Positions 8,082 through 51,262 of a stretch of 64,000 nt of DNA are shown here, piece after piece (positions within the stretch are counted from its first letter, which is position 1; each line of letters begins with the position of its first letter). The notes beneath the pieces are model-generated. The model was not told the DNA's origin. It saw only the letters and a program-made list of their open reading frames with translations, and searched no databases. The position numbers and the translations under genes were made by a program. This DNA is from Rhodanobacter sp. A1T4. GTDB lineage: Bacteria; Pseudomonadota; Gammaproteobacteria; Xanthomonadales; Rhodanobacteraceae. The stretch spans positions 186,001-250,000 of the forward strand of contig NZ_JACHCP010000004.1 in NCBI RefSeq assembly GCF_014207185.1, read 5' to 3'.

Positions 8082-8632
8082 TAACTCTTCCATCCGCATC
8101 ATCATCATCGACAGCAGCGGCAGCGCCGGGCCCGGTCTTGCGTGATATCCATTTGCCACCCGATCCATCATGGTGGCCACCTGCACCGGGCTGGTGGATG
8201 CTGGCGGGGCTTCTGCTCATGATAGCGGCGCTCTGCGCTTGGTTGTGGCGGCGATATCGTAGCCAGGCTCAAAAACGTGAGCGCGTGTTGGCTGAACTCG
8301 ATCAGCTGATGCAGCAGTACCAGCGAGACGGCGATCCGTCGGCGCTCGCGAGCGGTATGCATCAGCTGCTGCGTCGCGTCGCGCGCCGGCACGATGTACT
8401 CGCCGCGCAACAGCGAGGCAACGCATGGCGGCAAACGTTGGCGCGCGTTCCGGTCGATGCAGGGACGCTGGATCGGCTGATGGCGCTGGAGCAAGTGATT
8501 TACCGCGCGCCCGTACCGTTTGATCAAGCGGCTGCATCCGCGGCGGTTCGGCAATGGTTGCGACTGGCATTGAAGCCCACCAAATGGAAGCACGCTACGA
8601 GTGCACCGAGCAATGACGGAGCGCGGTCATGA
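8078..8632 (+). CDS. DUF4381 membrane protein
   Basis: Small inner-membrane protein (184 aa) with a low-complexity Ser/Ala/Pro N-terminus, the conserved LRDIHLPPDPSWWPPAPGWW segment and one transmembrane helix (about residues 35-55), then a basic cytoplasmic helical region. This matches the DUF4381 family found between DUF58 and BatA genes in Gammaproteobacteria. It uses a GTG start overlapping the previous stop and overlaps batA by 4 bp. No enzymatic motif is visible. Confidence 0.88.
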   Translation: MITLPSASSSSTAAAAPGPVLRDIHLPPDPSWWPPAPGWWMLAGLLLMIAALCAWLWRRYRSQAQKRERVLAELDQLMQQYQRDGDPSALASGMHQLLRRVARRHDVLAAQQRGNAWRQTLARVPVDAGTLDRLMALEQVIYRAPVPFDQAAASAAVRQWLRLALKPTKWKHATSAPSNDGARS

Positions 8633-34889: not shown

Positions 34890-35285
34890 ATGAAAGTACG
34901 ATCCTCCGGGCCTCTCAGGCCCAGTGAAGCGGAATTGCGAATCCTGCATGTTTTATGGGCACGCGACGCATGCACGGTTCGCGATGTGCATGATGTTCTT
35001 CACGCAGATGACGGCACCGGTTACACCACGGCGTTGAAGTTGCTGCAAGTCATGCATGGCAAGGGACTGGTGGAGCGCGATGACTCTCAGCGTGCACATG
35101 TCTATCGTGCTGCTATCAGTAAAGAACGGACCCAGAAAAAATTTCTGATTGACTTGGTGCAGCGAGTGTTCGATGGCTCGTCTTCGCAGTTGGTATTACA
35201 TGCGTTAGGCAGCCAGCGCACCAGCCGTGAGGAGTTGCGCGAAATACGGGCTTTGCTAAACAAACTCGACAAGGACGCGCCGTAA
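34890..35285 (+). CDS. BlaI/MecI/CopY-family repressor
   Basis: Winged-helix repressor of 131 aa: PSEAELRILHVLWARDACTV (helix 1-2), TTALKLLQVMHGKGLVERDD (recognition helix and wing) and a C-terminal dimerisation region. Family members are released by proteolysis triggered by a cognate M56 sensor, which is exactly the next gene; the TAA overlaps its ATG by one base. ATG 34890 has GGAG upstream. No beta-lactamase gene is adjacent, so the target is unclear. Confidence 0.94.
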   Translation: MKVRSSGPLRPSEAELRILHVLWARDACTVRDVHDVLHADDGTGYTTALKLLQVMHGKGLVERDDSQRAHVYRAAISKERTQKKFLIDLVQRVFDGSSSQLVLHALGSQRTSREELREIRALLNKLDKDAP

Positions 35286-37003
35286 TGGAAATGCCGTCTT
35301 TTGTAGCCGCGGGTATGGAGATTATCGGCTGGGCACTCGTGCACTTTATCTGGCAATGCAGTCTTCTTGGTTTGCTGTACGCGATAGCAAGAAAAGTTGT
35401 GTCTCGCGGCGAAGCGCGTTATCGCTTGGGAATGATGACGCTATTCATGCTGGCTATATGTCCCTTGCTGACGATATGGCAGATGCTGCGAGTGCTGCTA
35501 CCTTCGGTAGATACAACGACGGGGTCGGTTACATCGGATCTGGTAGGTGCGGGCTTGGTAGCAAATGCCACTCCATCTGCAGGCATTGCAATGAATGCGC
35601 TATTGCCTTGGCTTGTATTGGTGTGGCTTTTAGGCGTCTGTATTTTGTCACTGCGCGCCTGGCGCCAGTGGCGAGGACTCAATGCGCTAGTAGGTAAGGC
35701 CGAATCACTGCCCTTTTGGCAGTCTTGCGTCACTGACATGGCAAAACGCTTCGGGTTGAGTCGTCATGTGAGAGTGCTCTGCAGTCATGACATCGACACG
35801 CCAGCGCTGATTGGTTGGTTAAAGCCAGTTATCGTATTGCCGATGGCTGTGACATTGAATTTTCCGGCTACGCAGATCGAGTTGATCTTTGCTCACGAAC
35901 TCTCGCACTTGCGGCGATGGGATCCCCTCGCCAATTTGTTTCAGGTGATGCTGGAGACACTACATTTTTACCATCCCGTGGTGCACTGGATTTCGCAAGA
36001 CGTTCGGAACGAGCGCGAAATTTGCTGCGATCGACTTGCAATCGCGATCACTGGAGGTAGCCGTCATCAATTCGCTACGGCACTGGCTGAGCTGGGAGGG
36101 TTGCAGGAACAACGCGGAATGCTGCTACTTCCAGCCAACGGTGGCGTATTGCTGGATCGCGTGCAGCATATAATGCTCCCAGATCATGGGGGCGCTCGTG
36201 TGGGCAAGTCTGCCCGGTTTGCGGCCATGCTCCTTGCTGCTGTGCTTGTTGCAACGATGGTCCGGCTTGAATGGACACAGGCGCAGATCCAGCAAAGCCT
36301 TTCAGCATCTTTGCAGCGATTGAATACGATATTCGAACATCAGAGACTGCCACTTGAAAGATCGGTCGGTGCATTTCACTTGTCTGACCTTGTTCCTCAA
36401 CGTGTCAAGGTCCTGCGGCCTGTGGCACCAGGCACGCCACACCTGGCCCAAATTGATTCTGCGAGTTTGTTGCCAGCCGTCACGATTGCTGTTGGCGCAA
36501 TCGCGTTACCACGTCCGGTCCAGGTGCAGATTCTCGATCTGGTGCACAGCCATAACGAATTGCCCATTCGTATAGCCAATCAGGCCTCTGCTCTTGCGGC
36601 ACCAAGTCCTGTACTTATTCGCCGTCCGATTTACCCTCAAGATGCAGTTATAGGGGGCGTGGAAGGGAAGGTAACGGTTGAATTCAATATTGCCAGCGAT
36701 GGGAGTGTGCAGAACCTCAGCGTGATCAACGCCAAGCCCGCGGGGGTGTTCGATCAAGCGGCGGAACGGGCAATGCGTGGATGGAAATACGCAGTCAGTG
36801 AAGGTGTGTCGCCTCAGCGTCTGTACCGTCAGGTCTTCGCATTTTCGCTGAATGCATCGCGCGCCATGGGACCCGTATCAACAAATATGCCAGTGGGTAC
36901 TGAAGTCCTCGCGCGAGTGGGTTGTCAAACTCCTACTGGCACTCATATCTGTCGTTGGCCGGAAAGCAACGAATCAAAGAGGTTGGCAGAGCCGCAGCCT
37001 TGA
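35285..37003 (+). CDS. M56 metallopeptidase sensor fused to a TonB C-terminal domain
   Basis: BlaR1/MecR1-like membrane protein of 572 aa. Helices near residues 12-32, 45-65 and 105-125 precede the M56 zinc-protease domain with HELSHLRRWDPLANL (HExxH) and ICCDRLA; a further helix lies at about 313-330. Instead of a beta-lactam sensor domain the C-terminus carries a TonB-C/energy-transducer domain (about 435-530: YPQDAVIGGVEGKVTVEFNI, GWKYAVSEG). The tail ends GCQTPTGTHICRW. Forms a two-gene unit with the BlaI repressor. The signal sensed is unknown. Confidence 0.92.
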   Translation: MEMPSFVAAGMEIIGWALVHFIWQCSLLGLLYAIARKVVSRGEARYRLGMMTLFMLAICPLLTIWQMLRVLLPSVDTTTGSVTSDLVGAGLVANATPSAGIAMNALLPWLVLVWLLGVCILSLRAWRQWRGLNALVGKAESLPFWQSCVTDMAKRFGLSRHVRVLCSHDIDTPALIGWLKPVIVLPMAVTLNFPATQIELIFAHELSHLRRWDPLANLFQVMLETLHFYHPVVHWISQDVRNEREICCDRLAIAITGGSRHQFATALAELGGLQEQRGMLLLPANGGVLLDRVQHIMLPDHGGARVGKSARFAAMLLAAVLVATMVRLEWTQAQIQQSLSASLQRLNTIFEHQRLPLERSVGAFHLSDLVPQRVKVLRPVAPGTPHLAQIDSASLLPAVTIAVGAIALPRPVQVQILDLVHSHNELPIRIANQASALAAPSPVLIRRPIYPQDAVIGGVEGKVTVEFNIASDGSVQNLSVINAKPAGVFDQAAERAMRGWKYAVSEGVSPQRLYRQVFAFSLNASRAMGPVSTNMPVGTEVLARVGCQTPTGTHICRWPESNESKRLAEPQP

Positions 37004-37348: not shown

Positions 37349-38035
37349 ATGCGCGTTCTGGTGATCGAAGACAACAGCGATATCGCGACCAACATCGGCG
37401 ATTATCTGGAAGACCGCGGCCATGTGGTCGATTTCGCCGGCGACGGTGTCACCGGCTTGCATCTGGCAGTGGTGCACGATTTCGACGTCATCGTGCTGGA
37501 CCTCACCTTGCCCGGCATGGACGGGTTGGAAGTGGCGCGCAAGCTGCGCCATGAAGCGCACAAGCAGACGCCGATCCTGATGCTGACGGCGCGTGATGCG
37601 CTGGAACAGAAGCTGATCGGTTTCGAATCCGGCGCCGACGACTACATGACCAAGCCGTTTGCGCTGCAGGAAATCGCGGCGCGACTCGAAGTGCTGGCGC
37701 GTCGCGGTAAAGGCCCGCAGAGCCGTGTGCTTAAAGTGGCTGACCTCACGTTCAACCTCGATACGCTGACGGTGAATCGCGAAGGCAAGTCGATCCAGCT
37801 CAACCCGATCGGCCTGAAGTTGCTGCAGGCGCTGATGGAGGCCAGTCCGTCGGTGGTAACAAGACAGGATTTGGAGCAACGTGTGTGGGGTGAGGAGTTG
37901 CCCGATAGCGACTCTTTGCGCGTGCATATCCATGGCTTACGCGCGGCGATCGACAAGCCGTTCGAGAAGCCTTTGATTCACACGCGGCACGGCATTGGCT
38001 ATCGGATGGTCGAGCCGGATGCAGTCCAGGCGTAA
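37349..38035 (+). CDS. OmpR/PhoP-family response regulator
   Basis: Two-component response regulator (228 aa): receiver domain with acidic pair E7-D8, phospho-acceptor D51 (VIVLDLTLPGMDGL), Thr and Lys switch residues (LMLTARD, YMTKPF), then a winged-helix DNA-binding domain (about 130-225) ending HTRHGIGYRMVEP. ATG 37349 has GTAGGAG upstream. Overlaps the kinase gene by 17 bp. Target genes unknown; the glycolipid-type operon starts 1.8 kb downstream on the same strand. Confidence 0.95.
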   Translation: MRVLVIEDNSDIATNIGDYLEDRGHVVDFAGDGVTGLHLAVVHDFDVIVLDLTLPGMDGLEVARKLRHEAHKQTPILMLTARDALEQKLIGFESGADDYMTKPFALQEIAARLEVLARRGKGPQSRVLKVADLTFNLDTLTVNREGKSIQLNPIGLKLLQALMEASPSVVTRQDLEQRVWGEELPDSDSLRVHIHGLRAAIDKPFEKPLIHTRHGIGYRMVEPDAVQA

Positions 38036-39302
38036 GCTTCGCTTTCGATTGATTGTCTCGTTCGCGCTGTTTGGCTTCGGCCTCAGCGCGCTCTTTGCCG
38101 TGGCGGCGTTGTACGTGCGCGCCAAGGTAGAAAATCAGCTTATCAACGACAGTTTGCAGAACGATACGGATCAGGCAGTTGATCAGATCATCGCGCATCC
38201 TGATCAGCAAGCGCACTCCGAATTGCTCGAAGCCTGGTTCAAAAGCGATCGTACGATCTACAAGATGCCACTGGCCTGGCAGGACCTGGGTACGGGAGTT
38301 CATGACATCCAGGAAACGGATACTAGTGGCAAGGCCAGACACTACAAGCTCGCCGTCCGGCGCAAGAACGGCATCATCGGTTTTACCCGATATGACATCA
38401 GTCGCGAAGATCTAGGTAAGCGGCAGCTGATCACGTCCCTCATCGGTGCGGTGATTATTTTCAGCCTGCTCTCGTTGGGCATTGGCCTGTGGCTCTCGCG
38501 CAAAGTTCTCAAACCTGTCACTGAACTCGCGCATCGCCTGCGCGGTTTTCGCAAGGCCGGCAAGGCCGAGCCACTGGCAGTGCATTTCGCCGATGACGAA
38601 GTGGGCGAGCTGGCGCATGCGTTGGACGAATACTCCGAACGACTTACCGCGATGGTCGAGCGCGATCGCGAATTCAATTCGGACGTAAGCCATGAGCTGC
38701 GTACGCCGTTGGCAGTGATCGCCAGCACGACGGAACTGCTGCAGGGCTCGCCTGACCTCAGTGAAAAAATCAGCGAACGCCTGAAGCGCATTGAACGTGC
38801 ATCTCGTCAGGCGACCGAGCTGATCGAAGCCCTGCTTTTGCTGTCCCGTGCCGAACGGCGCGGGCCGACGCGTGGCGAAACCACCGAGGTGGGCAAGGTG
38901 GCCTCTGACGTGATCGAGAGCCAGCGGCCGCAGATGCGCGGCAAGCCGATTGAGATTGAATTGATCGTCAATGCCCCTGTGACCGTCAATGCGCCGGCGT
39001 CGGTGTTATCGGTGGCGCTCACCAACCTGATTGGCAATGCGATCAAGTACACGCTGGAAGGCAGCGTGCGCGTCGAGGTCGGCAAAGGCCGTATCGAAGT
39101 GATCGATACCGGTCCCGGCATCAAGCCGGAGGACGCCGAGCGGCTTTTCCAGCGCGGCGTACGTGGCGAAGGCGCAGGCGGCAGCGGTGCGGGTCTCGGT
39201 CTGGCGATTGTGCGCCGGTTGTGCGAACTCTACGGTTGGGACGTATCGATGCGTCCGCGCAGTGATGCCAACGGCGCGATTGCCTGCATCGTTTTCAAAT
39301 AG
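38019..39302 (+). CDS. Sensor histidine kinase
   Basis: Membrane sensor kinase of 427 aa: TM1 at about residues 10-33, a short periplasmic domain of about 100 residues, TM2 at about 137-160, HAMP, HisKA with FNSDVSHELRTPLAVIAS (phospho-acceptor H225) and HATPase_c (NLIGNAIKY, IDTGPGI, GSGAGLGLAIVRRL). I use ATG 38019 (MQSRRKLRFRL), which overlaps the regulator gene; a start at 37995 is also open. The domain order matches the PhoQ/ColS-like class. Confidence 0.93.
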   Translation: MQSRRKLRFRLIVSFALFGFGLSALFAVAALYVRAKVENQLINDSLQNDTDQAVDQIIAHPDQQAHSELLEAWFKSDRTIYKMPLAWQDLGTGVHDIQETDTSGKARHYKLAVRRKNGIIGFTRYDISREDLGKRQLITSLIGAVIIFSLLSLGIGLWLSRKVLKPVTELAHRLRGFRKAGKAEPLAVHFADDEVGELAHALDEYSERLTAMVERDREFNSDVSHELRTPLAVIASTTELLQGSPDLSEKISERLKRIERASRQATELIEALLLLSRAERRGPTRGETTEVGKVASDVIESQRPQMRGKPIEIELIVNAPVTVNAPASVLSVALTNLIGNAIKYTLEGSVRVEVGKGRIEVIDTGPGIKPEDAERLFQRGVRGEGAGGSGAGLGLAIVRRLCELYGWDVSMRPRSDANGAIACIVFK

Positions 39303-39865: not shown

Positions 39866-42800
39866 ATGAATGAGTACGAGGATGTTTCGTTACCGTTGAC
39901 CACAGCGCAACGTGGTCTGTGGGTCGGCCAGAAAATTGCGGCCGCCGATACCACCATGAATATTGCCGAGGCGGTCGAAATCTGCGGTCCGGTGGATCCT
40001 GCACTATTCCAGCGGGCGCTGTCGCAGGTGACCTGCGAAGCGGACACCCTGCGTGTTTGCATCGTCGAACAGAACGGCAAGCCGAGGCAGATCATCCGGC
40101 CGATCTACCAAGGTGAGTTTCCGTTCATTGACGCCAGTCACGAGGCCGATCCGGAGGCCGCCGCAAAAGCCTGGATGAACGACGAAATCATCCGGCCGGT
40201 CGACCTCGCGCACGATGCGTTGTGGGTGAGTGCGCTGATCAAGCTCGCCGATGACCGTTACTACTGGTACCAGCGCGCGCATCATGCGGTGTACGACGGT
40301 TATAGCGGCGGCATGGTTGCGCGCCGGGTGGCCGAGCTCTATACGGCCTACGCGGAGGGGTGCGAGCCAGCGCCGAGTGGATTCGGTTCGCTGCATACCC
40401 TGATCGAGGGCGAGGCCGTTTATCGAGACTCAGATCGCTTCCGTCGCGACCGCGAATACTGGAAAGAGCAGCTCGCCCAGTTGCCCGAGGCGGTTACCTT
40501 GTCGCGTAACACTCGTCGGCGCAGCATGGGTGGTCTGCTGCGCAGTATCGGTCATCTCTCAGTCGAGACGACACAGCGTCTGGGTGAGCTGGGCAAGCTT
40601 ACGGCGGCGAGCTTGCCGCAAGTACTGATCGGCCTGGTCGCTGCCTACTATCACCGCGCTACCGGTGCCAACGACCTGGTCATGGGCATGCCGGTTTCCG
40701 GACGCATCAATGCCACTCTGCGTAGTGCACCCGGAATGGTTGCAAACGCGGTAAGCATTCGCCTGTTCTTTACGCCAGAAATGACGGCGGCAGAGCTATT
40801 TGCGCAAGTGTCGAAGACCGTGCGGCAGTCGTTGCGGCACCAGCAGTACCGCTATGAGGATTTGCGCCGCGACCTTGGCCTGATCAGCGAAGGCCAGCAC
40901 ATTGCCTGGCTCGGTGTGAACATCGAACCGTTCGACTATCAGCTCAACTTCGCCGGTGCAAGTTCCATCGCGCACAACATGTCCAATGGCTCGGCGGAAG
41001 ATCTCACGGTCTTCGTCTACGACCGTGGCAACGATAGCCCGTTGCGCTTCGATTTCGACGCCAACCCCGCTCTGTATTCGATGGCCGAACTTGACGAACA
41101 CCGGCGTCGACTGGTGCGCCTGATCGAAGCCGTGTTGGCCGATCCGACACAGCCGCTGCGGCAGATCGACATACTTGGCGAAGAAGAGCGCCAGCGCCTG
41201 CTGGTCGACTGGAACGACACGGCGGCGCCGTTGTCCGACCAGCGCCTGCCAGCACTGGTCGCGCGTCATGCGCGGCTGACCCCGCAAGCGCCGGCGGTGG
41301 TATTCGAAAACAACGTCATCAGCTATCGCGAACTGCATGCACGCAGCGTCAGTCAGGCCCGCCAGTTGCTCGCCGATGGCGTGGAGCCGGGTGACGTAGT
41401 AGCGGTGGCCTTGCCGCGCAGCGAGCAACTGCTGGTTGTGCTGCTGGCGATCATGCGGACCGGCGCGGCGTATCTGCCGATCGATCTGGACAGCCCGGCT
41501 GAGCGTACGGCGCTGGTGCTGGCCGATGCGTCGCCGATCGTGCTGATCGCCCAGCCCGAAATGCACGCGCGTTTTGCTCTCGGTGGCTTGCTGCTGCTGG
41601 TGCCGGAAGAACTGGATACATCGTCAGGCGAAACGCTATCTGGCGAGACCTTGTACGAGCCTGATCTCAGCGTAGCGGAAAGCACGGCGTATGTGCTCTA
41701 CACCTCAGGTTCCACCGGCCGGCCCAAGGGTGTGGAAGTCACTCATCGCAATCTGGGCAATTTCCTGCAAGGTATGCAGGATCAGCTTAGGCCGGTGGCA
41801 AGCGATCGCTTTTTGGCTGTGACTACGGTGATCTTCGATATTGCCGGACTCGAACTGTATCTGCCGCTCACCGTTGGCGCGCAAGTGGTGATGGCCAGTT
41901 GCGAAGCAGTGCGCAATCCACCACTGCTGGCGCAGCTTATTCAACGCAGCGGTGCCACCCACGTGCAGGCCACGCCATCGTTGTGGCGCGTGCTTCTGAC
42001 GAGTGCGGAAACGAAACTGGACGGCGTGCATGCACTGGTGGGTGGTGAAGCGCTCAGTGCGGAACTGGCTGGCCGCCTGCAGCGTCATGCTGCGCGTGTC
42101 ACGCAGTTCTACGGCCCGACTGAAACCACCGTATGGTCGACGGCATTCGAACTGGGCAGCCTCGACCAGGCGCCGCCATCGATTGGCCGGCCCATCCTCA
42201 ACACCCGGCTCTATGTGCTCAATGAAGATCGCCAGCCCGTGCTGACCGGTGCGATTGGCGAGCTGTATATCGGCGGCGCCGGTGTCGCCAAGGGTTATCT
42301 CAATCGTCCACAACTTACCGAGGAGCGTTTCCCGGCAGACCCATTCGTGGCCGATGGCAGCCGGATGTATCGCACCGGCGATCTGGTGCGCTGGAGCGAT
42401 GATGGCTTGCTGAGTTTCATCGGGCGCGCGGATGGTCAGGTGAAAGTCCGCGGCCATCGCGTCGAGTTGGGTGAAATCGAAGCCCAACTGCTCGAGCACG
42501 TCGCCATCACGGCGGCCGCCGTTGCCGCGCATTGCGATGCGGAAGGCATCGTCACGCTAGCCGGTTATCTGGTGGTGGCGGCTGGCGCCACCATCGATAC
42601 CGATGCTGTGCGTGTCTATCTGTCCAGCCGATTGCCGGAATACATGATGCCGGCCAGCTTCATGCTGCTTGATGCGTTACCCCTGACACCGAACGGCAAG
42701 TTGGACCGCAAGGCATTGCCGCAGCCCGAGCGGCAATCCCGCGCGGCTTATGTCGAGCCGGTGACCCAGATCGAGCAGAAACTGGCGGCGTTGTGGCAGC

Positions 42801-43924
42801 AGATTCTTGGGCTGGAGCGAGTGGGTCTGCACGATAATTTTTTCGAGATCGGTGGCGATTCACTGAGCGCGGCAGAAATGCTTGCGCGCTTCCCCGAGCA
42901 TTTTTCCATGGAGTTGCCGCTAAGCAGCTTGTTCGAGGCCTCCACCATTGCTGGTTTGGCCGGCTATCTGCAGCGTGCGGATAGCCTGAGTGACCCGCTG
43001 GGTTCATTGCTGCCGCTGCGTCTGTCGCAACAGCAGCGGCCGCTGTTCTGTATCCACCCGGTGGTCGGTATCAGCTGGGGCTACGCCAACATGCTGCGCC
43101 ATCTGGACGGCAAGCTGCCAGTCTATGGTCTGCAATCGCATGGCCTGCGTGGCAAGACGTCGTTGCCTGAAAGCATCGAGGAAATGGCGGCGGATTATCT
43201 GGTGCAGATACGGCGCAAACAGCCGCATGGGCCGTATCGTCTGCTGGGCTGGTCGCTGGGCGGCCTGATTGCGCACGCCATCGCGGCACAGCTGCAAGCT
43301 CAGGGCGAGCACGTGGAATGCCTGGCGATGATGGATTCGTATCCCTTCGTTACCGATGATGCGCAGGCGTGCAGTGACGAAGCGCTCGAGGTCCAGGCGA
43401 TTCTGCACTTCCTCGGCTTCCATCAATTGGCCAGAGACAATCCGCCCGCAAACATGGATGCGTTGAGCGATGCGCTATGCCGCGAATACGACGTGTTTTC
43501 GGTGCCGCTGGTGCAGGAGATCATGAAGAGTGACCCGCAGCTGATTGATCACGTATCGGCGGTGACCCGCAATAATCTGCGGCTGGCCCGGCAATACGTG
43601 CCACAGCTGATCGATGCCGACTTGCTGTTCTTCCATGCCACCGCCAATGAACCGGTTGAGCTGGACGGATTGCTGCAATACCACCCGCGGGCGTGGCGGT
43701 CGTTTGTGGGCGGCCGGATCGAGACACACGAGATCGATTGCCATCATCAGAACATGCTGGAAGCCGGGCCGGCGGCACAGATCGGTGGCCTATTGCAGCA
43801 AAAGCTGACGGCTTTGCACGCAGCGAAGTCGGCGCTGCCAACCCTGCTGCGCCAGGCTGTCGTGCCAGAGCCCATGAAGACGGTCGATCGCGAAATGGCC
43901 GATCTGGGGGCGGTTTGTGTCTGA
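39866..43924 (+). CDS. Single-module NRPS (C-A-T-TE), predicted glycine-specific
   Basis: Non-ribosomal peptide synthetase of 1352 aa, EntF-like in layout. Condensation domain about 6-440 with HHAVYDG (H139-H140, D144-G145); adenylation about 455-960 with YTSGSTGRPKG and FDIAGLELYL (F657-D658); thiolation domain with GGDS (S999 carries phosphopantetheine); thioesterase about 1060-1300 with GWSLGG (S1130). Aligning to the ten GrsA pocket positions I read D-I-L-Q-V-G-F-V-W-K, close to the known glycine code. The N-terminal C domain should accept an acyl or hydroxyacyl donor. ATG 39866 has AAGGA upstream. First gene of the operon. Confidence 0.93.
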   Translation: MNEYEDVSLPLTTAQRGLWVGQKIAAADTTMNIAEAVEICGPVDPALFQRALSQVTCEADTLRVCIVEQNGKPRQIIRPIYQGEFPFIDASHEADPEAAAKAWMNDEIIRPVDLAHDALWVSALIKLADDRYYWYQRAHHAVYDGYSGGMVARRVAELYTAYAEGCEPAPSGFGSLHTLIEGEAVYRDSDRFRRDREYWKEQLAQLPEAVTLSRNTRRRSMGGLLRSIGHLSVETTQRLGELGKLTAASLPQVLIGLVAAYYHRATGANDLVMGMPVSGRINATLRSAPGMVANAVSIRLFFTPEMTAAELFAQVSKTVRQSLRHQQYRYEDLRRDLGLISEGQHIAWLGVNIEPFDYQLNFAGASSIAHNMSNGSAEDLTVFVYDRGNDSPLRFDFDANPALYSMAELDEHRRRLVRLIEAVLADPTQPLRQIDILGEEERQRLLVDWNDTAAPLSDQRLPALVARHARLTPQAPAVVFENNVISYRELHARSVSQARQLLADGVEPGDVVAVALPRSEQLLVVLLAIMRTGAAYLPIDLDSPAERTALVLADASPIVLIAQPEMHARFALGGLLLLVPEELDTSSGETLSGETLYEPDLSVAESTAYVLYTSGSTGRPKGVEVTHRNLGNFLQGMQDQLRPVASDRFLAVTTVIFDIAGLELYLPLTVGAQVVMASCEAVRNPPLLAQLIQRSGATHVQATPSLWRVLLTSAETKLDGVHALVGGEALSAELAGRLQRHAARVTQFYGPTETTVWSTAFELGSLDQAPPSIGRPILNTRLYVLNEDRQPVLTGAIGELYIGGAGVAKGYLNRPQLTEERFPADPFVADGSRMYRTGDLVRWSDDGLLSFIGRADGQVKVRGHRVELGEIEAQLLEHVAITAAAVAAHCDAEGIVTLAGYLVVAAGATIDTDAVRVYLSSRLPEYMMPASFMLLDALPLTPNGKLDRKALPQPERQSRAAYVEPVTQIEQKLAALWQQILGLERVGLHDNFFEIGGDSLSAAEMLARFPEHFSMELPLSSLFEASTIAGLAGYLQRADSLSDPLGSLLPLRLSQQQRPLFCIHPVVGISWGYANMLRHLDGKLPVYGLQSHGLRGKTSLPESIEEMAADYLVQIRRKQPHGPYRLLGWSLGGLIAHAIAAQLQAQGEHVECLAMMDSYPFVTDDAQACSDEALEVQAILHFLGFHQLARDNPPANMDALSDALCREYDVFSVPLVQEIMKSDPQLIDHVSAVTRNNLRLARQYVPQLIDADLLFFHATANEPVELDGLLQYHPRAWRSFVGGRIETHEIDCHHQNMLEAGPAAQIGGLLQQKLTALHAAKSALPTLLRQAVVPEPMKTVDREMADLGAVCV

Positions 43925-45269
43925 TCTGAAGGGCATACGCGCACCTATCGCGATCTTTACCATCGGCACGCAGGGCGATATACGGCCTTGCGTAGCTCTG
44001 GGGCAGGGCTTGCAGCGCGCTGGCTATCCGGTGCGCATCGTCACCAGCGATAATTTTGCCGAGCTGGTTCGTGGCGCCGGGCTGGAGTTTTTCCCGCTGA
44101 CCAGCAATTTCCAGACACTGCTGGAGGCCGATCGTAGCATTGCCGATCAGGGGCTGAATATGCGCGCGATGGCGCGTACCTTCCGCGACTGTTTTGCGGA
44201 TTGGGCCACCCACTGGGTTGAGGAGGGCATGGCCGCGAGCGATGGCGCTGGCCTGTTGATCGGCGTCGGCAACAGCACCTTGCTGGCGCAATCGCTGGCC
44301 CAGCGGCGCGGCCTGCCGTTCGTGCGCGCGCAGTTACAACCGCTGACGCCATCGAAAATTCTGCCGCCGATGGTGCTCGCTGGTACTCGCAGCCAATTGC
44401 CCGGTGCATTGAGCATGGGCGCCTACCATCTGCTGCGCTTGCTGGTGTGGCAGGTGATGCGCCCGGCGATCAACGGCATCGTCCGGCCTCAGCTTGGTGT
44501 GCGCGGCTATCCCTGGTATGGGCCGTATTTCAATGAAGGCGAGGCGCGCGGCCGGGTGATTTATGGTTTCAGCCAGCACGTGCTGCCACGACCGGCCGAT
44601 TGGCCAGGCACGGCACAGGTGGCCGGCTACTGGTTTCTCGACCAACCGCAATGGCAGCCATCGGATGCCTTGCGCGATTTCCTCGATGCCGGCCCCAAGC
44701 CGGTGTATATCGGCTTCGGCAGCATGGTTAGCAGCGATGCCGTGGGATTCACCAGGAAAATACTCGATGGCGTGCGCAAGAGTGGTCAGCGTGCCGTGCT
44801 GGCCACCGGTTGGGGCGGCCTGGATGGCGCCGACGGTGCGCAGGACGGGCAGACTTTCTTTCTGCGCCATGCGCCACACGACCAGCTGTTTCCGCTGATG
44901 TCGGCTGCCGTGCATCACGGTGGTGCAGGCACCACGGCTGCCGCCGCGCGGGCGGGCATTCCCTCGGTGATCGTACCGTTCTATGGCGATCAGCCGTTCT
45001 GGGCGCGCTGTCTCAACCGTCAGGGTGTGGCACCGCCCGCGCTGGATCGGCTGAACCTGAGCGCGGACGCCCTGGCAAGCGCCTTGGTGGCCACGCAACA
45101 GCCGTCGATCCAGCAGGCCGCGACAGCGCTTGGACAGGCTGTCCGCGCCGAAGATGGCGTGGCCGCAGCGGTGCGCTATCTACAGGCCTGGGGCTTGCTG
45201 GATGTATCGGCAGAAGCTTTGTCCAGTGCGACGACCGCGGCCTATGCGCCGGTGCGGAGCGCGGCGTGA
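43917..45269 (+). CDS. GT1-family glycosyltransferase (RhlB/sterol-glucosyltransferase type)
   Basis: Two-domain GT-B glycosyltransferase of 450 aa. The N-terminal FTIGTQGDIRPCVALGQGL matches the lipid-glycosyltransferase group (RhlB, sterol glucosyltransferases); the C-terminal nucleotide-sugar motif is HHGGAGTTAAAARAGIPSVI followed by PFYGDQPFWA. Acceptors in this group are usually hydroxylated lipids. GTG start at 43917 overlaps the NRPS end by 8 bp, so expression is coupled. Sugar donor (UDP-glucose or dTDP-rhamnose) cannot be decided by eye. Confidence 0.9.
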   Translation: MSDLKGIRAPIAIFTIGTQGDIRPCVALGQGLQRAGYPVRIVTSDNFAELVRGAGLEFFPLTSNFQTLLEADRSIADQGLNMRAMARTFRDCFADWATHWVEEGMAASDGAGLLIGVGNSTLLAQSLAQRRGLPFVRAQLQPLTPSKILPPMVLAGTRSQLPGALSMGAYHLLRLLVWQVMRPAINGIVRPQLGVRGYPWYGPYFNEGEARGRVIYGFSQHVLPRPADWPGTAQVAGYWFLDQPQWQPSDALRDFLDAGPKPVYIGFGSMVSSDAVGFTRKILDGVRKSGQRAVLATGWGGLDGADGAQDGQTFFLRHAPHDQLFPLMSAAVHHGGAGTTAAAARAGIPSVIVPFYGDQPFWARCLNRQGVAPPALDRLNLSADALASALVATQQPSIQQAATALGQAVRAEDGVAAAVRYLQAWGLLDVSAEALSSATTAAYAPVRSAA

Positions 45270-47533
45270 AATGGGGCTGGTCCCACCTGCTCGGCGGCAT
45301 CGGCGTGGCGGCGGTCGTGCTTGGCAAAGCGGCATGCAGCCGCAAGCCCAAGTCGCGCAGCCTGCAGCAACGCCTGGCTATGTTGCCCTGCACGGGTGCA
45401 CCGGTAGCCGATGCGGTCACGATCCGCTGGAATGAACACCAGATACCTTTTATCGAAGCGTCCAGCGACAACGATCTGATGGTTGCGCTGGGTGTGGTGC
45501 ATGCGCATCTGCGGCTGGGCCAGATCGAACTGATGCGGCGTATCGCCTATGGCCGTGTCGCGGAGATGATTGGTCCACTCGGCATCGAGGTGGATCGTTC
45601 ATTGCGCCTGTTCGATGTCGGTCGCGCCGTGCCACAGATGCTGGCCGCGCTGTCGTCGGAAGATCGGCAACTGGCTGAGAGCTTCGTCGCCGGCATCAAT
45701 CATGTGCTGCTCGACGGCGGCGAGAAGCCCCCCGAGTTCAAGCTGCTCAACATGCGTGTCGAACCTTGGACGCTGACGGATCTGCTCACCTTCGGCCGGC
45801 TGGCCTCCGCAGATATCGGCTGGCTGGTCTGGCTACGGTTGTTGCCGTTGCGCGAGCGATTGGCGCCCGATGTGTGGGCCGCGTTGTGGCCGCGCTTGCT
45901 GGCCGGAGAGATGCCGGCGACGGCCGCCGCCAGCGAGCGCGATCTGGCCGGCCGGGCGATCACCGCGATGCTGCGCAGCGGCAGCAACTCCGCTGCTATT
46001 GCAGCGCACCGCAGCCGCAGCGGCGCGGCGATGATTGCCAGCGATCCGCACCTGCCGCTGAGTCTGCCCAATGCCTGGCTGATTGCCGGAATGCATTCGC
46101 CCGGGTTTCACTGTGTGGGCCTGATGATGCCGGGACTGCCGTTCCTGCTGCTTGGTCGCAATCGCTGGATCGCCTGGGGTGGCACCAGCCTGCATGCGCA
46201 AGGCAGCGATCTGTTCGATGTGTCCGACGTGCCTTCGGCGGCGATGCGCGAACGCACTGAGACGGTTCATGTACGTGGCGCACGCACGCGCCGGTTGCGC
46301 TTGCGCGAGAGTGAGTTTGGGCCGATCGTTTCCGATGGCGCGCTGTTGTCCTCAGGGCAGACCCTGGCCATGCGCTGGGTCGGTCATCGCCCCAGCAGCG
46401 AGTTGAGTGCCATGCTCGGCGTGGCGCGTGCGCGCGACTGGGACTCATGGAGTCAGGCCTTGCGCAGTTACGGCGTATCCGGTGCCAATCTGGTGTTTGC
46501 CGGCAGCGATGGGCGGGTAGCGCATGTGCTGGCGGCGCATTTGCCCCGGCGCCCGCTGCAGCCGCCGACGGATCTGGTGTTGCCGACGCAGGCTGCTTCG
46601 CACTGGGAACAGATCGCCGATATCACGGCGATGCCGCTCCGGTTCGATCCGCCGGAAGGCTTCGTCGCTTCGGCCAACGAGCCGCCGCGCGGCGGTGATT
46701 TTCCCGTGGGTTATTTCTTCGCACCGCCCGATCGCGCCGAGCGTCTGGCGACCTTGCTGGGTGGGGATAAGCTGCTCGACGTTGACGATCTGCGCCGGTT
46801 GCAACGCGACGTCGCCGGGTCCGGCAGCCTTCGTATGCGCGATCTGCTGCTGACGGCGCTGCCCTTGCTCCCACGCGCGGCCGCATCGCAGCGTTTGCGT
46901 GAGGTGTTGCGACAATGGAATGGCGACTATGCCGCCGATTCGGCCGGTGCACTGGCTTTTGAACTGTTGCTGGCCGGCGTGGCAAAGCGTTTGAGCAACA
47001 AGCGCTATCTGGGTGCCTACCAGACCGTGTGGATGACCCAGCGTCTGTTGCGACAGGATTTCGCTGCGCTACCCGACGCGGTGCTGCGCCGTGCGGTTGA
47101 ACGCGCTTTGCCGGCCGCGGCACGGCAGTTGGGCCGCTACGCACGCTGGGGTGCGATGCATCGGATCCGCTTGAAGCATCCGCTTGGCTATTTACCCGGT
47201 CTCGGGCGTTTTTTCAATGCGCCGCCGTTCGCGGCGGAGGGTGGCAACAACACCGTGCACAAAAGCGGGCACTCGTTGAGCGGCGGAGAGCACGAGGCCA
47301 GCTTCGGTTCCTGTGCGCGGCACATCTCCGATCTGTCCGATCTGGACGCCAACGATTTCGTGCTGCTGGGCGGTCAGGATGGCTGGGCGGGCAGTGCCAA
47401 CTATCTCGATCAAGCGGCGCTTTGGCAGCGCGGAGATTACATCCGGGTGCCGATGCGCCCGGAAAGTGTGCGTGCCGCTTTCACTCATATCACGGTATTG
47501 CAGGCGGCACTGATGCCGGTACCTGCGCCATGA
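45266..47533 (+). CDS. S45-family Ntn-hydrolase (penicillin amidase/AHL acylase-like)
   Basis: Exported amidase of 755 aa. The N-terminus has a basic residue and hydrophobic segment (about 7-24), then an alpha-chain region (TIRWNEHQIPFIEASSDNDL), a spacer and the predicted self-cleavage site G239-S240-N241, where S240 would become the N-terminal nucleophile of the beta chain; ASDPHLPLSLPNAWLIAGM follows as in other S45 enzymes, and GGNNTVHKSG later. GTG 45266 overlaps the preceding stop (GTGA). Relatives cleave acyl-amide bonds (PvdQ, AHL acylases, penicillin G acylase). Confidence 0.9.
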   Translation: MKWGWSHLLGGIGVAAVVLGKAACSRKPKSRSLQQRLAMLPCTGAPVADAVTIRWNEHQIPFIEASSDNDLMVALGVVHAHLRLGQIELMRRIAYGRVAEMIGPLGIEVDRSLRLFDVGRAVPQMLAALSSEDRQLAESFVAGINHVLLDGGEKPPEFKLLNMRVEPWTLTDLLTFGRLASADIGWLVWLRLLPLRERLAPDVWAALWPRLLAGEMPATAAASERDLAGRAITAMLRSGSNSAAIAAHRSRSGAAMIASDPHLPLSLPNAWLIAGMHSPGFHCVGLMMPGLPFLLLGRNRWIAWGGTSLHAQGSDLFDVSDVPSAAMRERTETVHVRGARTRRLRLRESEFGPIVSDGALLSSGQTLAMRWVGHRPSSELSAMLGVARARDWDSWSQALRSYGVSGANLVFAGSDGRVAHVLAAHLPRRPLQPPTDLVLPTQAASHWEQIADITAMPLRFDPPEGFVASANEPPRGGDFPVGYFFAPPDRAERLATLLGGDKLLDVDDLRRLQRDVAGSGSLRMRDLLLTALPLLPRAAASQRLREVLRQWNGDYAADSAGALAFELLLAGVAKRLSNKRYLGAYQTVWMTQRLLRQDFAALPDAVLRRAVERALPAAARQLGRYARWGAMHRIRLKHPLGYLPGLGRFFNAPPFAAEGGNNTVHKSGHSLSGGEHEASFGSCARHISDLSDLDANDFVLLGGQDGWAGSANYLDQAALWQRGDYIRVPMRPESVRAAFTHITVLQAALMPVPAP

Positions 47534-48495
47534 AAAGTTTCGGCCTGATCTTCGTGCTTTATCAGCCGTCCGGAGAGTTTCTGCATAACTTGCAGAAAGC
47601 GCGTGCCATCTGCGACAACGTCATAGCCGTCGACAACTCGCCCGAGGCGGACATGCGTTTGCACGAGCGGCTGTGCGGTCAAGGCATGCAGGTACTCTAC
47701 AACTACAACGACGGCGGGCTTGCCGGAGCCTACAACAAGGGCGCCCAGTTGCTGCTGGCACAGCAGTGCGAGGTGATCTTTCTGCTGGATCAGGATTCAG
47801 ATATCGACGCATCGTTCTTCAGCAAGATGATGCATGCCTGCGAAGCATTGGGCACGGATACCTTCCTGGTCGGTCCGAAAATCCACGAGATCAACCTGCA
47901 GAAGTGCATGCCGGTGATACCGCCCGGCAAGCGTTTCCCCAAGCCCTTGCGCATCGACAATCAGACCGAAGGAATGTTCCCCACGCTGTTCATCATCTCC
48001 TCCGGCTCGGCCATTTCGGCGCAGGCCTACCGTAAACTCGGCGCGTTCAGAGAAGACTATTTCATCGAGTACATCGACATCGAATACAGCTTGCGCGCAT
48101 CCAGTCAGGGTGTGCCGGTATACATGAATGCTGCGGTGATGATGCGCCAGACCGCTGGCGACATCGAGCAACATGGCAAGTTGTACACCACCAACCATGT
48201 GGCATGGCGGCGCTACTACCGCGCACGCAACGGAGTGCATTGCCTGCGCTTGTACCGGGCGCATTGGGGGCTGCACTGGTTGAGCGGATTGCTGGCTATC
48301 CATCAGGGCTACTGCGTACTGCTGTTCGAGCCGCAGAAACTGCGCAAGATCGTCGCAATAGCCTGCGGGTATATCGATGGGCTCCTGGGCAGGCTCGGCA
48401 CGTTCGAACAACGACACCCGCGAATCGCCGCTTTCTGCAAGAAACCGGCGCGCAAGCACGCGCCGGTCAGTTCTGCCGCTGCGGCTGAATCGTGA
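47530..48495 (+). CDS. GT2-family glycosyltransferase, rhamnosyltransferase (RhlC-like)
   Basis: GT-A fold transferase of 321 aa. IAVDNSPEADMRLHERLCGQ, NDGGLAGAYNKG and the metal site FLLDQDSDID are typical of the L-rhamnosyltransferase group containing RhlC and RfbF; FIISSGSAIS, YFIEYIDIEYSLRA and the RRYYRARNG segment align in order with RhlC as I remember it. ATG 47530 overlaps the acylase stop by 4 bp. Probably adds a deoxyhexose to the product begun by the NRPS and the GT1 enzyme. Confidence 0.92.
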   Translation: MKSFGLIFVLYQPSGEFLHNLQKARAICDNVIAVDNSPEADMRLHERLCGQGMQVLYNYNDGGLAGAYNKGAQLLLAQQCEVIFLLDQDSDIDASFFSKMMHACEALGTDTFLVGPKIHEINLQKCMPVIPPGKRFPKPLRIDNQTEGMFPTLFIISSGSAISAQAYRKLGAFREDYFIEYIDIEYSLRASSQGVPVYMNAAVMMRQTAGDIEQHGKLYTTNHVAWRRYYRARNGVHCLRLYRAHWGLHWLSGLLAIHQGYCVLLFEPQKLRKIVAIACGYIDGLLGRLGTFEQRHPRIAAFCKKPARKHAPVSSAAAAES

Positions 48496-48590
48496 GCACG
48501 ATGAAAAGAAAGCTTGCCAACCTCGAGTACTTGATCGAAAGCAAGATCGCTTTCGTCATCTGCCTGCAAGAAACGATTGCCGCAGAATAG
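48492..48590 (+). CDS. Possible 32-aa coupled small gene at the operon end
   Basis: GTG at 48492 overlaps the GT2 stop as GTGA, the same linkage used twice earlier in this operon. The product would be 32 aa: a basic start, NLEYLIESKI, a short hydrophobic FVICL and the end QETIAAE, closed by TAG. An in-frame ATG at 48501 is an alternative start. It may be a real small protein or the first part of a longer gene interrupted by amber codons (see the next entry). No family recognised. Confidence 0.4.
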   Translation: MSTMKRKLANLEYLIESKIAFVICLQETIAAE

Positions 48591-48617
48591 CTGCGTGCGT
48601 CGCTGGAGCGGGTGTAG

Positions 48618-48772
48618 CTTTCCGTGCCGCATTCGCTTGTGAGCAGCGAACGCGGCACGCTTTACTACGAACCGGATAAGACGGGTGCGATTCCGTTACG
48701 CGTCGTCCAGCGCGAGGCTATGGACGAAGCCGCCGATGATGTTTGCGCGCGGCAGTATCAGGTCGAATCGGT
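48618..48772 (+). pseudogene. Coding-like frame continuing after two amber codons
   Basis: In the same frame as the 32-aa gene, after TAG at 48588 and TAG at 48615, the sequence reads as plausible protein: SSERGTLYYEPDKTG, IPLRVVQREAMDEAADD and CARQYQVESVQ. Beyond 48773 the frame runs antisense into ilvE and loses that character. If both TAG were CAG the whole stretch would be one protein of about 93 residues. I read it as a decayed or truncated gene; an independent gene starting at GTG 48624 cannot be excluded. Confidence 0.35.
48624..48658. repeat. 14-bp inverted repeat near the ilvE 3' side
   Basis: GTGCCGCATTCGCT and AGCGAACGCGGCAC with a 7-base loop; the single mismatch is a G-U pair on the minus strand. 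It lies 115 bp beyond the ilvE stop and 34 bp beyond the small peptide frame. No strong T-run on either side, so terminator function is uncertain. Confidence 0.5.
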
Positions 48773-49690
48773 TCAGACCGGCTCGAGCCAGCCCCAGCGA
48801 TCGTTGGTGCGGCCATCGAACAGGCCGAAGAACAGTTCCTGCAAGCGACGGGTCACGCGACCGGCCTTGCCTGCGCCGACCTGCTTGCCGTCAACCGAGC
48901 GGATAGGCGTGATCTCGGCCGCGGTGCCACACATCAGGATCTCGTCGGCAAGATAGAGGTATTCACGCGGGATATCGCGCTCGACCACTTCAATGCCATC
49001 TTCGCGGGCCAATGTCTTCAACGTATCGCGGGTGATGCCCGCCAGGATCGATGCGCTGGCCGGCGTGGTGTGCAGCACACCGTCGAATACCAGGAACAGG
49101 TTTTCCCCGGCGCCTTCGCTCAGCAGGCCGGTGGAAGCCAGCGCGATGCCTTCACCAAAACCCAGCCGGCGCGCTTCGCGGGCGATCAGTTGACCCGACA
49201 GATAATTGCCGCCGGCCTTGGCGCCTGCCGGGATGGTGTTGGGCGCGAAACGCTGCCAGCTCGAGACGCAGGCATCGATGCCGTTTTCCAGCGCTTCGGC
49301 ACCAAGGTAAGGACCCATCGGCCAAGCGGCTACCGCCACATCGATCGGCGTTTCGGCGGACAGGCCAAAGCCACCCAGTCCACGATAAGCGACCGGTCGC
49401 AGATACGCCGCGCCCAGCTCGTTTTTCTTGATCACATCACGGCAGGCCGCGGCCAGCTCATCGGCAGTATGTGGCAGCACCATGTCGTAAATGCGTGCCG
49501 ACTGGTAAAGCCGATTCAGATGGTCGGTTAGTCGGAAAATGGCTGCGCCGTCGGGCGTCGCATAGCTACGGATGCCTTCGAATACGGACGAACCGTAATG
49601 CAGCGCATGCGACATCACATGGGTGGTCGCTTCCTGCCAAGGTTTGATCTTGCCGTTCTGCCAGATCCATTCCGGGTACTGCTGCGCCAT
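48773..49690 (-). CDS. ilvE: Branched-chain-amino-acid aminotransferase IlvE
   Basis: PLP-dependent fold-type IV transaminase (305 aa) interconverting Leu, Ile and Val with their 2-oxo acids. Conserved blocks: HALHYGSSVFEGIRSY, YLRPVAYRG, AKAGGNYLSGQLIAREA (which should hold the PLP lysine), GLLSEGAGENLFLV and EILMCGTAAEITPI. The frame is open to 49816; ATG 49690 (MAQQYPEWIW) has GGAG upstream and is the family start. Likely monocistronic. Confidence 0.96.
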   Translation of the reverse strand: MAQQYPEWIWQNGKIKPWQEATTHVMSHALHYGSSVFEGIRSYATPDGAAIFRLTDHLNRLYQSARIYDMVLPHTADELAAACRDVIKKNELGAAYLRPVAYRGLGGFGLSAETPIDVAVAAWPMGPYLGAEALENGIDACVSSWQRFAPNTIPAGAKAGGNYLSGQLIAREARRLGFGEGIALASTGLLSEGAGENLFLVFDGVLHTTPASASILAGITRDTLKTLAREDGIEVVERDIPREYLYLADEILMCGTAAEITPIRSVDGKQVGAGKAGRVTRRLQELFFGLFDGRTNDRWGWLEPV

Positions 49691-49788
49691 GACGGTTCTC
49701 CAATGGGGACCGCGCATGATAGCTGCTGAGTGGTTGTACGGCATGTGTATGGCACGGTGAACTGAGCCAGCGGCCAGATCGGTCCGCC

Positions 49789-50385
49789 TCAGTCGGCATT
49801 GCGTAGCCACAGGCAACCTGAGCGGCGCACGATGCCGTAACGCAGTTCTCGTGGGTTACCACTGCCGTCGTTGCCGGCCAGATGCAGGACCAACTGGTTA
49901 CCAGAGACAGGTGCCTCGGCAGCGTTATCTGTCGTCGACGGATCGCTGTTGCCAGTCGGCGAAGCGTCGGCATTGTCGGGCGGCCCGGCGTCCAGCAGCG
50001 GTTGCTGCATCAATGCACTGAGCGCGCGAATGTCGGCAACGGCGGCGCTACCGCCGTAGCCATTCCAAAGCATCAGCCCCGCCATGCGGTTTGCGTTGTG
50101 GTTGGCGAAGGCATCGATCACGCTCTGCCGCAATTCGTTGAAGGTTCCGGCGCAGAGAACCGGCGGTGGCTCAGCCGGTGCGGAGGCAATCGTTGCGGTA
50201 TGGGTGACGTCATCACTGGGTTTGGCCGCAGCATGTACCGTGGTGGCCTGCATGGCGGCGCAGGTCTGGTCGGTAAACAGCGCATTGCCGTTCGCGCCGA
50301 TGCAGCGATGAATATCAGTCTGCGCCCTGCCGGGCATGGCCCAGAGAATCAGAACGAACCACAGCAATGTTGTCAGCAGGCGCAT
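49789..50385 (-). CDS. Secreted DUF4124-like protein
   Basis: Exported protein of 198 aa. Signal peptide to about residue 22 (MPGRAQ|TD), then HRCIGANGNALFTDQTCAA, which resembles the DUF4124 pattern (YKC-x-G-x-TVYSDxPC) seen in many xanthomonad proteins. The C-terminal part is Asp/Ser/Pro-rich with a conserved-looking RELRYGIVRRSGCLWLRN ending. Four Cys are present. ATG 50385; the open frame beyond it is a shadow of metF. It is the gene after metF on the same strand, 22 bp away, so co-transcription is likely. Function unknown. Confidence 0.75.
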   Translation of the reverse strand: MRLLTTLLWFVLILWAMPGRAQTDIHRCIGANGNALFTDQTCAAMQATTVHAAAKPSDDVTHTATIASAPAEPPPVLCAGTFNELRQSVIDAFANHNANRMAGLMLWNGYGGSAAVADIRALSALMQQPLLDAGPPDNADASPTGNSDPSTTDNAAEAPVSGNQLVLHLAGNDGSGNPRELRYGIVRRSGCLWLRNAD

Positions 50386-50407: not shown

Positions 50408-51232
50408 TCAAACCAGTTGATGCAGCACCGACTGGGTCGCTTTGGCGCGGTTGAGCGTGTAGAAATGCAGTCCCGGCGCGCCGCCGTCGAGCAGGCGGCG
50501 GCACAGCTGTGCGACGACTTCGGCGCCGAGCGCTCGCACCGACTCGGCATCGTCGCCGTGAGCCTGCATACGCTTGGCGATCCAGCGCGGAATTTCGGCA
50601 CCGCACATTTCCGAGAATCGCCGCAATTGGCTGTAGTTGGCGATCGGCATGATGCCCGGCACGATCGGCACGTTCACACCCAGCTTGCCGGCATCGTCAA
50701 TGAAGCGGAAATAGGCATCGGCGTTGAAGAAGTATTGGGTGATGGCACCATCGGCGCCAGCATCGACCTTGGCCTTGAAGTGCTGCAGGTCCTTCAACGC
50801 GTTGTCCGCCTGCGGGTGGGTTTCAGGGTAGGCAGCTACTTCGATATGGAAATGATCACCACTGTGCTGACGGATGAAAGCCACCAGTTCGACGGCATAG
50901 CGGAAATCGCCCGGAGTCGCCATGCCGGAAGGCAGATCACCGCGAAGCGCGACAATGCGTCGATAGCCGGCTGCCCGGTATTCGTCCAGCAGAGCACCCA
51001 GTTCGGCGCGTGTTCCACCTACGCAGGACAGATGGGGTGCCACCGAGAGCCCATGCACCTTATTGAGATGCTGCACGGTTTCGCTGGTGTAGCTCAAAGT
51101 TGAACCGCCAGCGCCGAAAGTTACGGAGGCGTACTCGGGCTGGTGCGCCTTCAACAGCTGAGCGGCACGATCCATCTGTGCACGCTGTTCGTCAGTCTTG
51201 GGTGGAAAGAATTCAAAGCTGATCGCCGGCAT
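50408..51232 (-). CDS. metF: 5,10-methylenetetrahydrofolate reductase MetF
   Basis: FAD-dependent enzyme producing 5-methyl-THF for methionine synthesis (274 aa). Begins MPAISFEFFPPKTDEQRA; VTFGAGGSTLSYT, HLSCVGG, ALRGDLPSG and GADGAITQYFFNADAYFRF are family motifs. ATG 51232 preferred over the preceding GTG codon (51235). It has its own -10-like box upstream and is separated from ahcY by a terminator and another gene. Confidence 0.96.
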   Translation of the reverse strand: MPAISFEFFPPKTDEQRAQMDRAAQLLKAHQPEYASVTFGAGGSTLSYTSETVQHLNKVHGLSVAPHLSCVGGTRAELGALLDEYRAAGYRRIVALRGDLPSGMATPGDFRYAVELVAFIRQHSGDHFHIEVAAYPETHPQADNALKDLQHFKAKVDAGADGAITQYFFNADAYFRFIDDAGKLGVNVPIVPGIMPIANYSQLRRFSEMCGAEIPRWIAKRMQAHGDDAESVRALGAEVVAQLCRRLLDGGAPGLHFYTLNRAKATQSVLHQLV

Positions 51233-51262
51233 CACGTCGTGTCCAGATGGTGCAATGGGCTA

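Follow-up and report, generated by a model that had tools for sequence, protein, structure and literature searches.

A four-gene operon of Rhodanobacter sp. A1T4 predicted to make a glycosylated N-acyl-glycine, with an S45 amidase as candidate hydrolase of the acyl-glycine amide

The 64,000-nucleotide stretch of DNA analyzed here (the window; Rhodanobacter sp. A1T4, contig NZ_JACHCP010000004.1, positions 186,001 to 250,000) carries an operon of four intact, overlapping genes on the + strand that encode, in order, a one-module nonribosomal peptide synthetase (NRPS; 39866-43924), a GT1-family glycosyltransferase (43917-45269, GTG start), an S45 penicillin-amidase-family Ntn hydrolase (45266-47533, GTG start), and a GT2-family glycosyltransferase (47530-48495). 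Reading of the open reading frames (ORFs) gave overlaps of 8 bp between the NRPS and GT1 genes (43917-43924), 4 bp between the GT1 and amidase genes, and 4 bp (ATGA) between the amidase and GT2 genes, in agreement with an earlier note, made from the sequence alone, that had described four large one-strand genes joined by 4- to 8-bp overlaps. An in-frame ATG at 39827 provides an alternative NRPS start; the sequence upstream of 39866 is AAGGAAGG. The ratios of nonsynonymous to synonymous substitution (dN/dS) of the four genes were 0.17-0.27 in comparison to related locus L151 and 0.11-0.18 in comparison to L149, with dS values (0.85-1.75) near saturation. All four genes are under purifying selection, and the ratios indicate that they encode constrained proteins and are not chance ORFs. 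A promoter scan returned no sigma-70-like sites. Genes for MbtH, a phosphopantetheinyl transferase (PPTase), or a transporter were not seen among the ORFs of the operon, as the earlier note had said. The 5.08-Mb host genome, which is essentially complete, has one MbtH match and two ACPS-superfamily matches outside the operon along with an RmlD-family match of 302 bits (the same family also matches in all 14 control genomes), so that a PPTase and perhaps dTDP-rhamnose would be available.

Pfam agreed with the C-A-T-TE reading of the NRPS and with the GT1 and S45 assignments made in the earlier note. The NRPS has condensation (C; 39890-41203, 240 bits), adenylation (A; 41261-42301, AMP-binding, 273 bits), peptidyl carrier protein (PCP; 42776-42970, PP-binding, 58 bits), and thioesterase (TE; 43037-43762, 108 bits) domains, all on the + strand, and its HHxxxDG, GGDS, and GxSxG motifs are all intact. 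When compared with the C domains of the Protein Data Bank (PDB), the window C domain scored 303 bits with 7c1k, 216 with CDA synthetase I, 200 with ObiF1, and 179 with EntF, followed by Txo2 (121) and LgrA (46). We take the first four to be starter C domains, with 7c1k presumably a fatty-acyl starter domain, and the last two to be elongation domains; on this basis the score ranking supports a starter-type C domain in the window. Assignment by eye on the GrsA scheme gave DILQVGFVWK for the ten code positions of the A domain. In this region the top PDB match is 5u89, whose nine visible positions are D I L Q V G L I W; seven of them are identical (the differences are V/I and F/L). We assume 5u89 to be the glycine module of the bacillibactin synthetase DhbF, and the agreement supports a glycine-type window A domain. 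Over the whole A domain LgrA outscores 5u89 in the PDB but carries a different code. Among 26 full-length NRPSs, the window included, 21 have a DILQ-type code and five (L153 and L155-L158) have DILW.GLVLK, a code of another specificity. The NRPS also resembles the EntF and MxcG models along most of its sequence, with scores of 704 and 769 bits that are far under the cut-offs, and starter C domains of the EntF type accept aryl acids; these points would fit a product that is a glycosylated aryl- or other acyl-glycine, such as a small signal or siderophore-like compound, and not a lipid. We consider such a product quite unlikely, given that the C domain scores 303 bits with 7c1k versus 179 with EntF, that no aryl-acid genes were seen on reading the operon, and that the PapA-like acyltransferases of fuller clusters (see below) suggest a lipid.

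The GT1 protein matched the GT1-type N and C domains of Pfam with 39 and 41 bits, and its closest solved structures are a sterol 3-beta-glucosyltransferase (163 bits) and GtfB (115 bits), with a rhamnosyltransferase at 23 bits. The sterol glucosyltransferase and GtfB presumably use UDP-glucose, which favors glucose as the first sugar. The GT2 protein scored 27 bits with Pfam Glycos_transf_2, and a PDB search found no relative. Described as RhlC-like in the earlier note, it matches the rhamnosyltransferase model TIGR01556 of NCBIfam, but at 163.3 bits the curated cut-off of 200.55 is not reached. In the rhamnolipid system, RhlB (GT1) and then RhlC (GT2) act on a hydroxyacyl lipid; the window likewise pairs a GT1 with a GT2 enzyme, but the aglycone here would come from an NRPS, and reading of the operon found no RhlA.

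The amidase matched the Pfam family Penicil_amidase with 514.7 bits. Its nucleophile is Ser240 (codon 45983-45985), the query residue at which the beta chains of solved structures begin, and the catalytic Ser, Asn, and Arg residues, whose roles we assume from the S45 family, are aligned in all nine homologues examined. The protein has a short hydrophobic N-terminal stretch, conserved among relatives, and is likely to be exported. The family and the catalytic Ser, Asn, and Arg are shared with S45 penicillin acylases, PvdQ, and D-succinylase, but members of the window subfamily have NRPS-GT1 or GH3 genes as neighbors in most of the cases examined.

A GT1 search of 233 genomes of the family yielded 19 at E<=1e-70, the window included, and all 19 loci were compared by tblastn. 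An NRPS adjoins GT1 in 19/19; GT2 is present in 12/19, the amidase in 5/19, and a PapA-type acyltransferase (PapA1) in 7/19; a second one (PapA2) is intact in 9/19 and is a remnant in the window. Three of these genomes (G398, G296, and G275) have a GT1 gene interrupted by an internal stop. The earlier note had looked to conserved neighbors for signs that the genes might be unrelated; the comparison did not refute their association, and it rules out a chance grouping of the four genes. Two loci from one related genus (L149 and L150) have the order NRPS-GT1-amidase-PapA1-GT2-PapA2 between the two-component and ilvE-metF genes that also border the operon in the window, and five genomes of another genus, g13 (L038 and L159-L162), have NRPS-GT1-PapA1-GT2-PapA2 at the same site. 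Locus L152 has NRPS-GT1-amidase-GT2 with the two-component genes and metF, and L151 has the same reduced gene set. The five loci of genus g7 (L153 and L155-L158) are NRPS-GT1 pairs without GT2, amidase, or PapA genes. Several g7 clusters have ABC/MFP/outer-membrane efflux genes nearby, as judged by reading (one ABC ATPase was checked with Pfam). The PapA2 label is loose, as these proteins match condensation-domain models only and are 26-29% identical to PapA1; the PapA1 copies match the PapA5 model weakly (37-45 bits of 396).

The stretch at 48492-48772 (+ strand) resembles the first 70-110 residues of the nine intact PapA2 proteins (tblastn, 46-57 bits; the best of 200 mononucleotide shuffles gave 24.6). 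This broken gene head overlaps the end of GT2 by 4 bp, contains in-frame stops, lacks most of the gene, and runs into the 3' end of ilvE (48773). Intact PapA2 follows GT2 in L038, L039, L149, L150, L154, and L159-L162. A 32-residue ORF at 48492-48590 was ruled out as a separate gene because it is the head of the broken acyltransferase gene, and it explains why the earlier note had ended the unit at 48590, 95 bp beyond the end of GT2 at 48495; that note counted the four genes correctly but overlooked both PapA-type acyltransferases that related clusters encode, as well as the broken window copy. There is no room for PapA1 in the window since the amidase and GT2 genes overlap by 4 bp. Judged by these alignments, the window lineage has no PapA1 and retains PapA2 only as a fragment. 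The simplest reading of the 19 loci is an ancestral six-gene operon with later losses. On an NRPS tree the amidase would require three changes, PapA1 two, GT2 four, and PapA2 three; the tree was a quick one with long branches and with the row of the interrupted L055 NRPS (Xanthomonas euvesicatoria) dropped, so the counts are only a guide, and shuffling of operon genes between lineages is possible.

The site of the operon was compared across the 45 genomes of the window's genus, where the kinase gene of the left flank was found in 44 and ilvE in 45. The stretches matching the kinase and ilvE are 114-485 bp apart in 38/38 sister genomes that have both genes on one contig (6 genomes were not scorable) versus 9605 bp in the window, and no other genome of the genus is among the 19 with GT1, so that within the sampled genus the operon is seen only in this species. 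The lack of room for the operon at the site in all scorable sister genomes and the in-frame stops of the PapA2 remnant could be taken to mean that the operon is decaying and, with PapA1 and most of PapA2 gone, that no finished product is made. We regard such decay as very improbable: the four remaining genes are open with dN/dS values of 0.11-0.27, the same reduced gene set is found in L151 and L152, and the active-site motifs of the NRPS and amidase are intact.

A profile scan of genome contigs with the GT1 alignment extended the comparison. Among the best 80 of 569 matches, which were the ones kept, the NRPS-GT1 pair occurs in X. pisi, X. prunicola, X. euvesicatoria, Nitrospirillum amazonense, Zhongshania, and Spongiibacter; an NRPS lies beside GT1 also in the order-mates G175 and G061. 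In the Xanthomonas loci examined an Acyl_transf_3 protein adjoins GT1, unlike the window, and the G175 acyltransferase is 88.7% identical to that of X. pisi (L053). In X. euvesicatoria (L055, ~8155-8170 and 11789) the NRPS is interrupted (two tblastn pieces) as is the neighboring acyltransferase; other Xanthomonas records have intact copies. The order in Zhongshania and Spongiibacter is sulfotransferase-NRPS-GT1-PPTase; with the sulfotransferase-family gene 5' of the other three (L057 4282-5271 and L060 4399-5382), a sulfated product is conceivable. No NRPS was present in the stretch examined from Marinomonas (L058), and the only NRPS-like stretch of Agrobacterium vitis (L059) is 35% identical and ~8 kb off at the edge of the locus. 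A gene for a LuxR-type autoinducer-binding regulator (L059 8932-9771) adjoins the A. vitis GT1 relative. Of the 369 genomes in a class sample, only the one with the window yielded a GT1 at E<=1e-50, which indicates that the cassette is rare.

The distribution of the amidase was followed separately. At identities of at least 54% it is present in 5/233 family genomes and adjoins GT1 in all five (chance 2.1e-6 if it were independent of GT1 presence, ignoring shared ancestry); other family matches at E<=1e-30 are at most 34% identical. When 21 genomes that have the NRPS-GT1 pair (14 from the family) were searched, a 58% identical copy was found in Nitrospirillum and a 43% copy in Zhongshania. The Nitrospirillum gene shares its contig and strand with GT1 and lies ~11 kb past it. 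Between the two are two RND pumps, of which the second was identified by reading, along with genes for another GT1, an MFS transporter, and LysR. At L054 10016-12511, viewed with L172, the GT1 frame of Nitrospirillum extends to 831 residues in a much larger version of the cluster. Within the class sample the amidase was found in 2/368 other genomes (41-42% identity), in both cases adjoining a downstream GH3-family gene; the overlap between the amidase stop and the presumed GH3 start is 1 bp in one genome and 4 bp in the other. The sole plasmid match was the amidase of Indioceanicola profundi (45.6%), with a GH3 gene 13 bp later that was identified by its 48% identity to the GH3 protein of L176. 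For the distant relatives as a group (39-46%), the amidase directly precedes a GH3 gene in three of four (L176, L177, and L178, not L173). GH3 enzymes form acyl-amino-acid amides. Thus the amidase accompanies a maker of acyl-amino-acid amides in the five operons, in Nitrospirillum, and in three of the four outside cases, and it is chiefly on this basis that we propose that it would cleave such amides. The notion of a subfamily restricted to the NRPS-GT1 cluster was dropped on account of the two class-sample copies beside GH3 and the Zhongshania copy on another contig. The S45 amidase and GH3 genes (L176, 6974-9190 and 5424-6974; L177, 7595-9841 and 6057-7598; L178, 8851-11196 and 11210-12742) form a two-gene unit, overlapping or 13 bp apart, that recurs in two Gammaproteobacteria and one Alphaproteobacterium.

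The amidase could alternatively be an acyl-transfer or editing enzyme, rather than one of release, that replaces the lost PapA acyltransferases by transferring an acyl chain to a different group or removes mis-acylated products. S45 enzymes are also able to catalyze synthesis. The window, L151, and L152 have the amidase but no PapA1 and no intact PapA2, and the five g13 genomes have PapA1 but no amidase. We nevertheless judge this role to be unlikely, as L149 and L150 carry the amidase together with both PapA genes, which indicates that the amidase and PapA are not simple alternatives.

Parts of the system have known counterparts. In mycobacteria, PapA acyltransferases and glycopeptidolipid clusters offer a comparison: an NRPS product, glycosyltransferases, and PapA-like acyltransferases are also combined in the six-gene relatives, but here the NRPS has one module, the scores with PapA models are weak, and PapA is absent or broken in the window. 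ABO_1784 and ABO_1783 are presumably the makers of the Alcanivorax glycine-glucolipid, and genetic proof of that pathway was reportedly obtained later. The Alcanivorax borkumensis lipid is described as a glucosyl-tetra(3-hydroxyacyl)-glycine (PMC10684412), and its pathway is called not elucidated in another article (PMC10710537). Royer et al. 2013 report short NRPS genes with overlapping glycosyltransferase genes in Xanthomonas albilineans (XALc_0364/0365 and XALc_1145/1144), with starter-clade C domains, a glycine signature in XALc_0364, and GT overlaps of 4 or 8 bp with the NRPS 3' end; they name as the A. borkumensis counterpart the contiguous ABO_1784 (NRPS), ABO_1783 (GT), and ABO_1782 (PPTase) genes and predict a product of glycine, a beta-hydroxy acid, and a sugar (PMC3849588). 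The window shares with the Royer pair the single C-A-PCP-TE module, the 8-bp GT overlap, the starter-type C domain, and the glycine-type code; an amidase, GT2, and PapA are not mentioned in the sections consulted (PMC3849588). With Alcanivorax, compared by its published description, the window has the NRPS-GT pair in common, whereas the PPTase is contiguous only there and the window has GT2 and the amidase in addition; the NRPS-GT1-PPTase order of Zhongshania and Spongiibacter is the contiguity reported for ABO_1784/1783/1782. Hence the operon is not undescribed as the earlier note had it, the NRPS-GT core being in print, while the acyl-glycine glycolipid idea of that note gains support from the starter-type C domain, the glycine-type code, the conserved NRPS-GT1 pair, and the same architecture and predicted product in the published account (PMC3849588). 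The glucoselipid operon of Rouxiella (PMC12299268) was set aside as a counterpart, as its abstract gives acyltransferase and phosphatase genes and no NRPS. No description of the amidase and PapA parts of NRPS-GT1 clusters was found in the open-licence literature searched. The NRPS-GT1 core and the product class were thus already predicted in print, and what is new within the searches made is the presence of the amidase and PapA genes, the broken acyltransferase copy, and the sister-species sites that have no operon.

On the strength of these sequence comparisons we favor, with some confidence, the reading that the operon makes a glycosylated N-acyl-glycine (a glycine-glycolipid, probably a surfactant) and that the amidase hydrolyzes its acyl-glycine amide. 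The C domain would join PCP-bound glycine to a fatty acyl thioester, probably of a 3-hydroxy acid, the TE would release the acyl-glycine, GT1 would add a first hexose to the acyl hydroxyl (glucose more likely than rhamnose), and GT2 would add a second sugar. We infer that the amidase may mature or trim the product, as the earlier note suggested: probably exported, it would hydrolyze the acyl-glycine amide, leading to turnover of the glycine form or to a free-acid glycolipid. Relatives with the fuller operon probably attach acyl chains by means of the two PapA-type enzymes.

Several observations weigh against this glycine-glycolipid pathway. The DILW.GLVLK code of five relatives means that the link between the cassette and glycine is not universal, and GT2 falls short of its model cut-off. 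In an order-wide GT1 search with 15 loci opened, the four with GT1 identities of at least 51% have the NRPS, but the other 11, in which the GT1 relative is only 31-38% identical, lack such an NRPS in the vicinity, so the NRPS-GT1 link is limited to the close GT1 subfamily. The closest solved amidases are D-succinylase and glutaryl acylases, that is, not lipid acylases, and identity with PvdQ was ruled out (34.7 bits versus an equivalog cut-off of 950). The amidase is missing from 14/19 family clusters, and none above 31% identity was found in four Xanthomonas-type genomes, Spongiibacter, or 14 family genomes, so it would not be needed for the core product; the Zhongshania copy (draft assembly) is on a different contig from the pair, beside glutamine synthetase III, with no NRPS or GH3 adjoining. 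Finally, a 2023 study did not find a glycine-free glucolipid in A. borkumensis and doubted its existence (PMC10684412).

A broader proposal, which we offer tentatively and hold to be possible but doubtful, is that the members of this S45 subfamily are hydrolases dedicated to acyl-amino-acid amides of enzymatic origin, each paired either with a glycine-loading NRPS-GT1 operon or with a GH3 amide synthetase, and that here the enzyme would free a surfactant by cutting glycine from a cell-bound glycolipid. If so, the amidase would correspond to a release enzyme that had at one time been postulated for Alcanivorax, where the glycolipid-releasing enzyme was called unknown in a 2019 review (PMC6669457). 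The glycine-glycolipid reading itself would extend the printed two-gene prediction to a six-gene pathway with natural variants that have or lack the acyltransferases, amidase, and second glycosyltransferase. Together with the empty site in sister species, these variants make up a comparative set for glycine-glycolipid biosynthesis, and the amidase, with its GH3 coupling in other genomes, offers a concrete candidate enzyme for undoing acyl-amino-acid amides.

The operon is flanked on the left by genes for a response regulator (37349-38035, + strand) and a sensor histidine kinase (37995-39302, + strand), the latter forming the left border of the insertion site. The regulator is 92-97% identical in eight related loci that retain this flank and, judged by its distribution, is outside the pathway. 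On the right are a branched-chain aminotransferase-like ilvE gene (48773-49816, - strand; Aminotran_4, 145 bits), assigned also by its ORF end and synteny, and a gene that we take to be metF-like (50408-51235, - strand) with synteny in L038, L149, L150, L152, and L159-L162. Further upstream, at 34890-37003, a short regulator gene is directly followed by one for a membrane protein that contains a metalloprotease-like region and has an end resembling TonB; by reading, the two genes look like a BlaI/BlaR1 pair.

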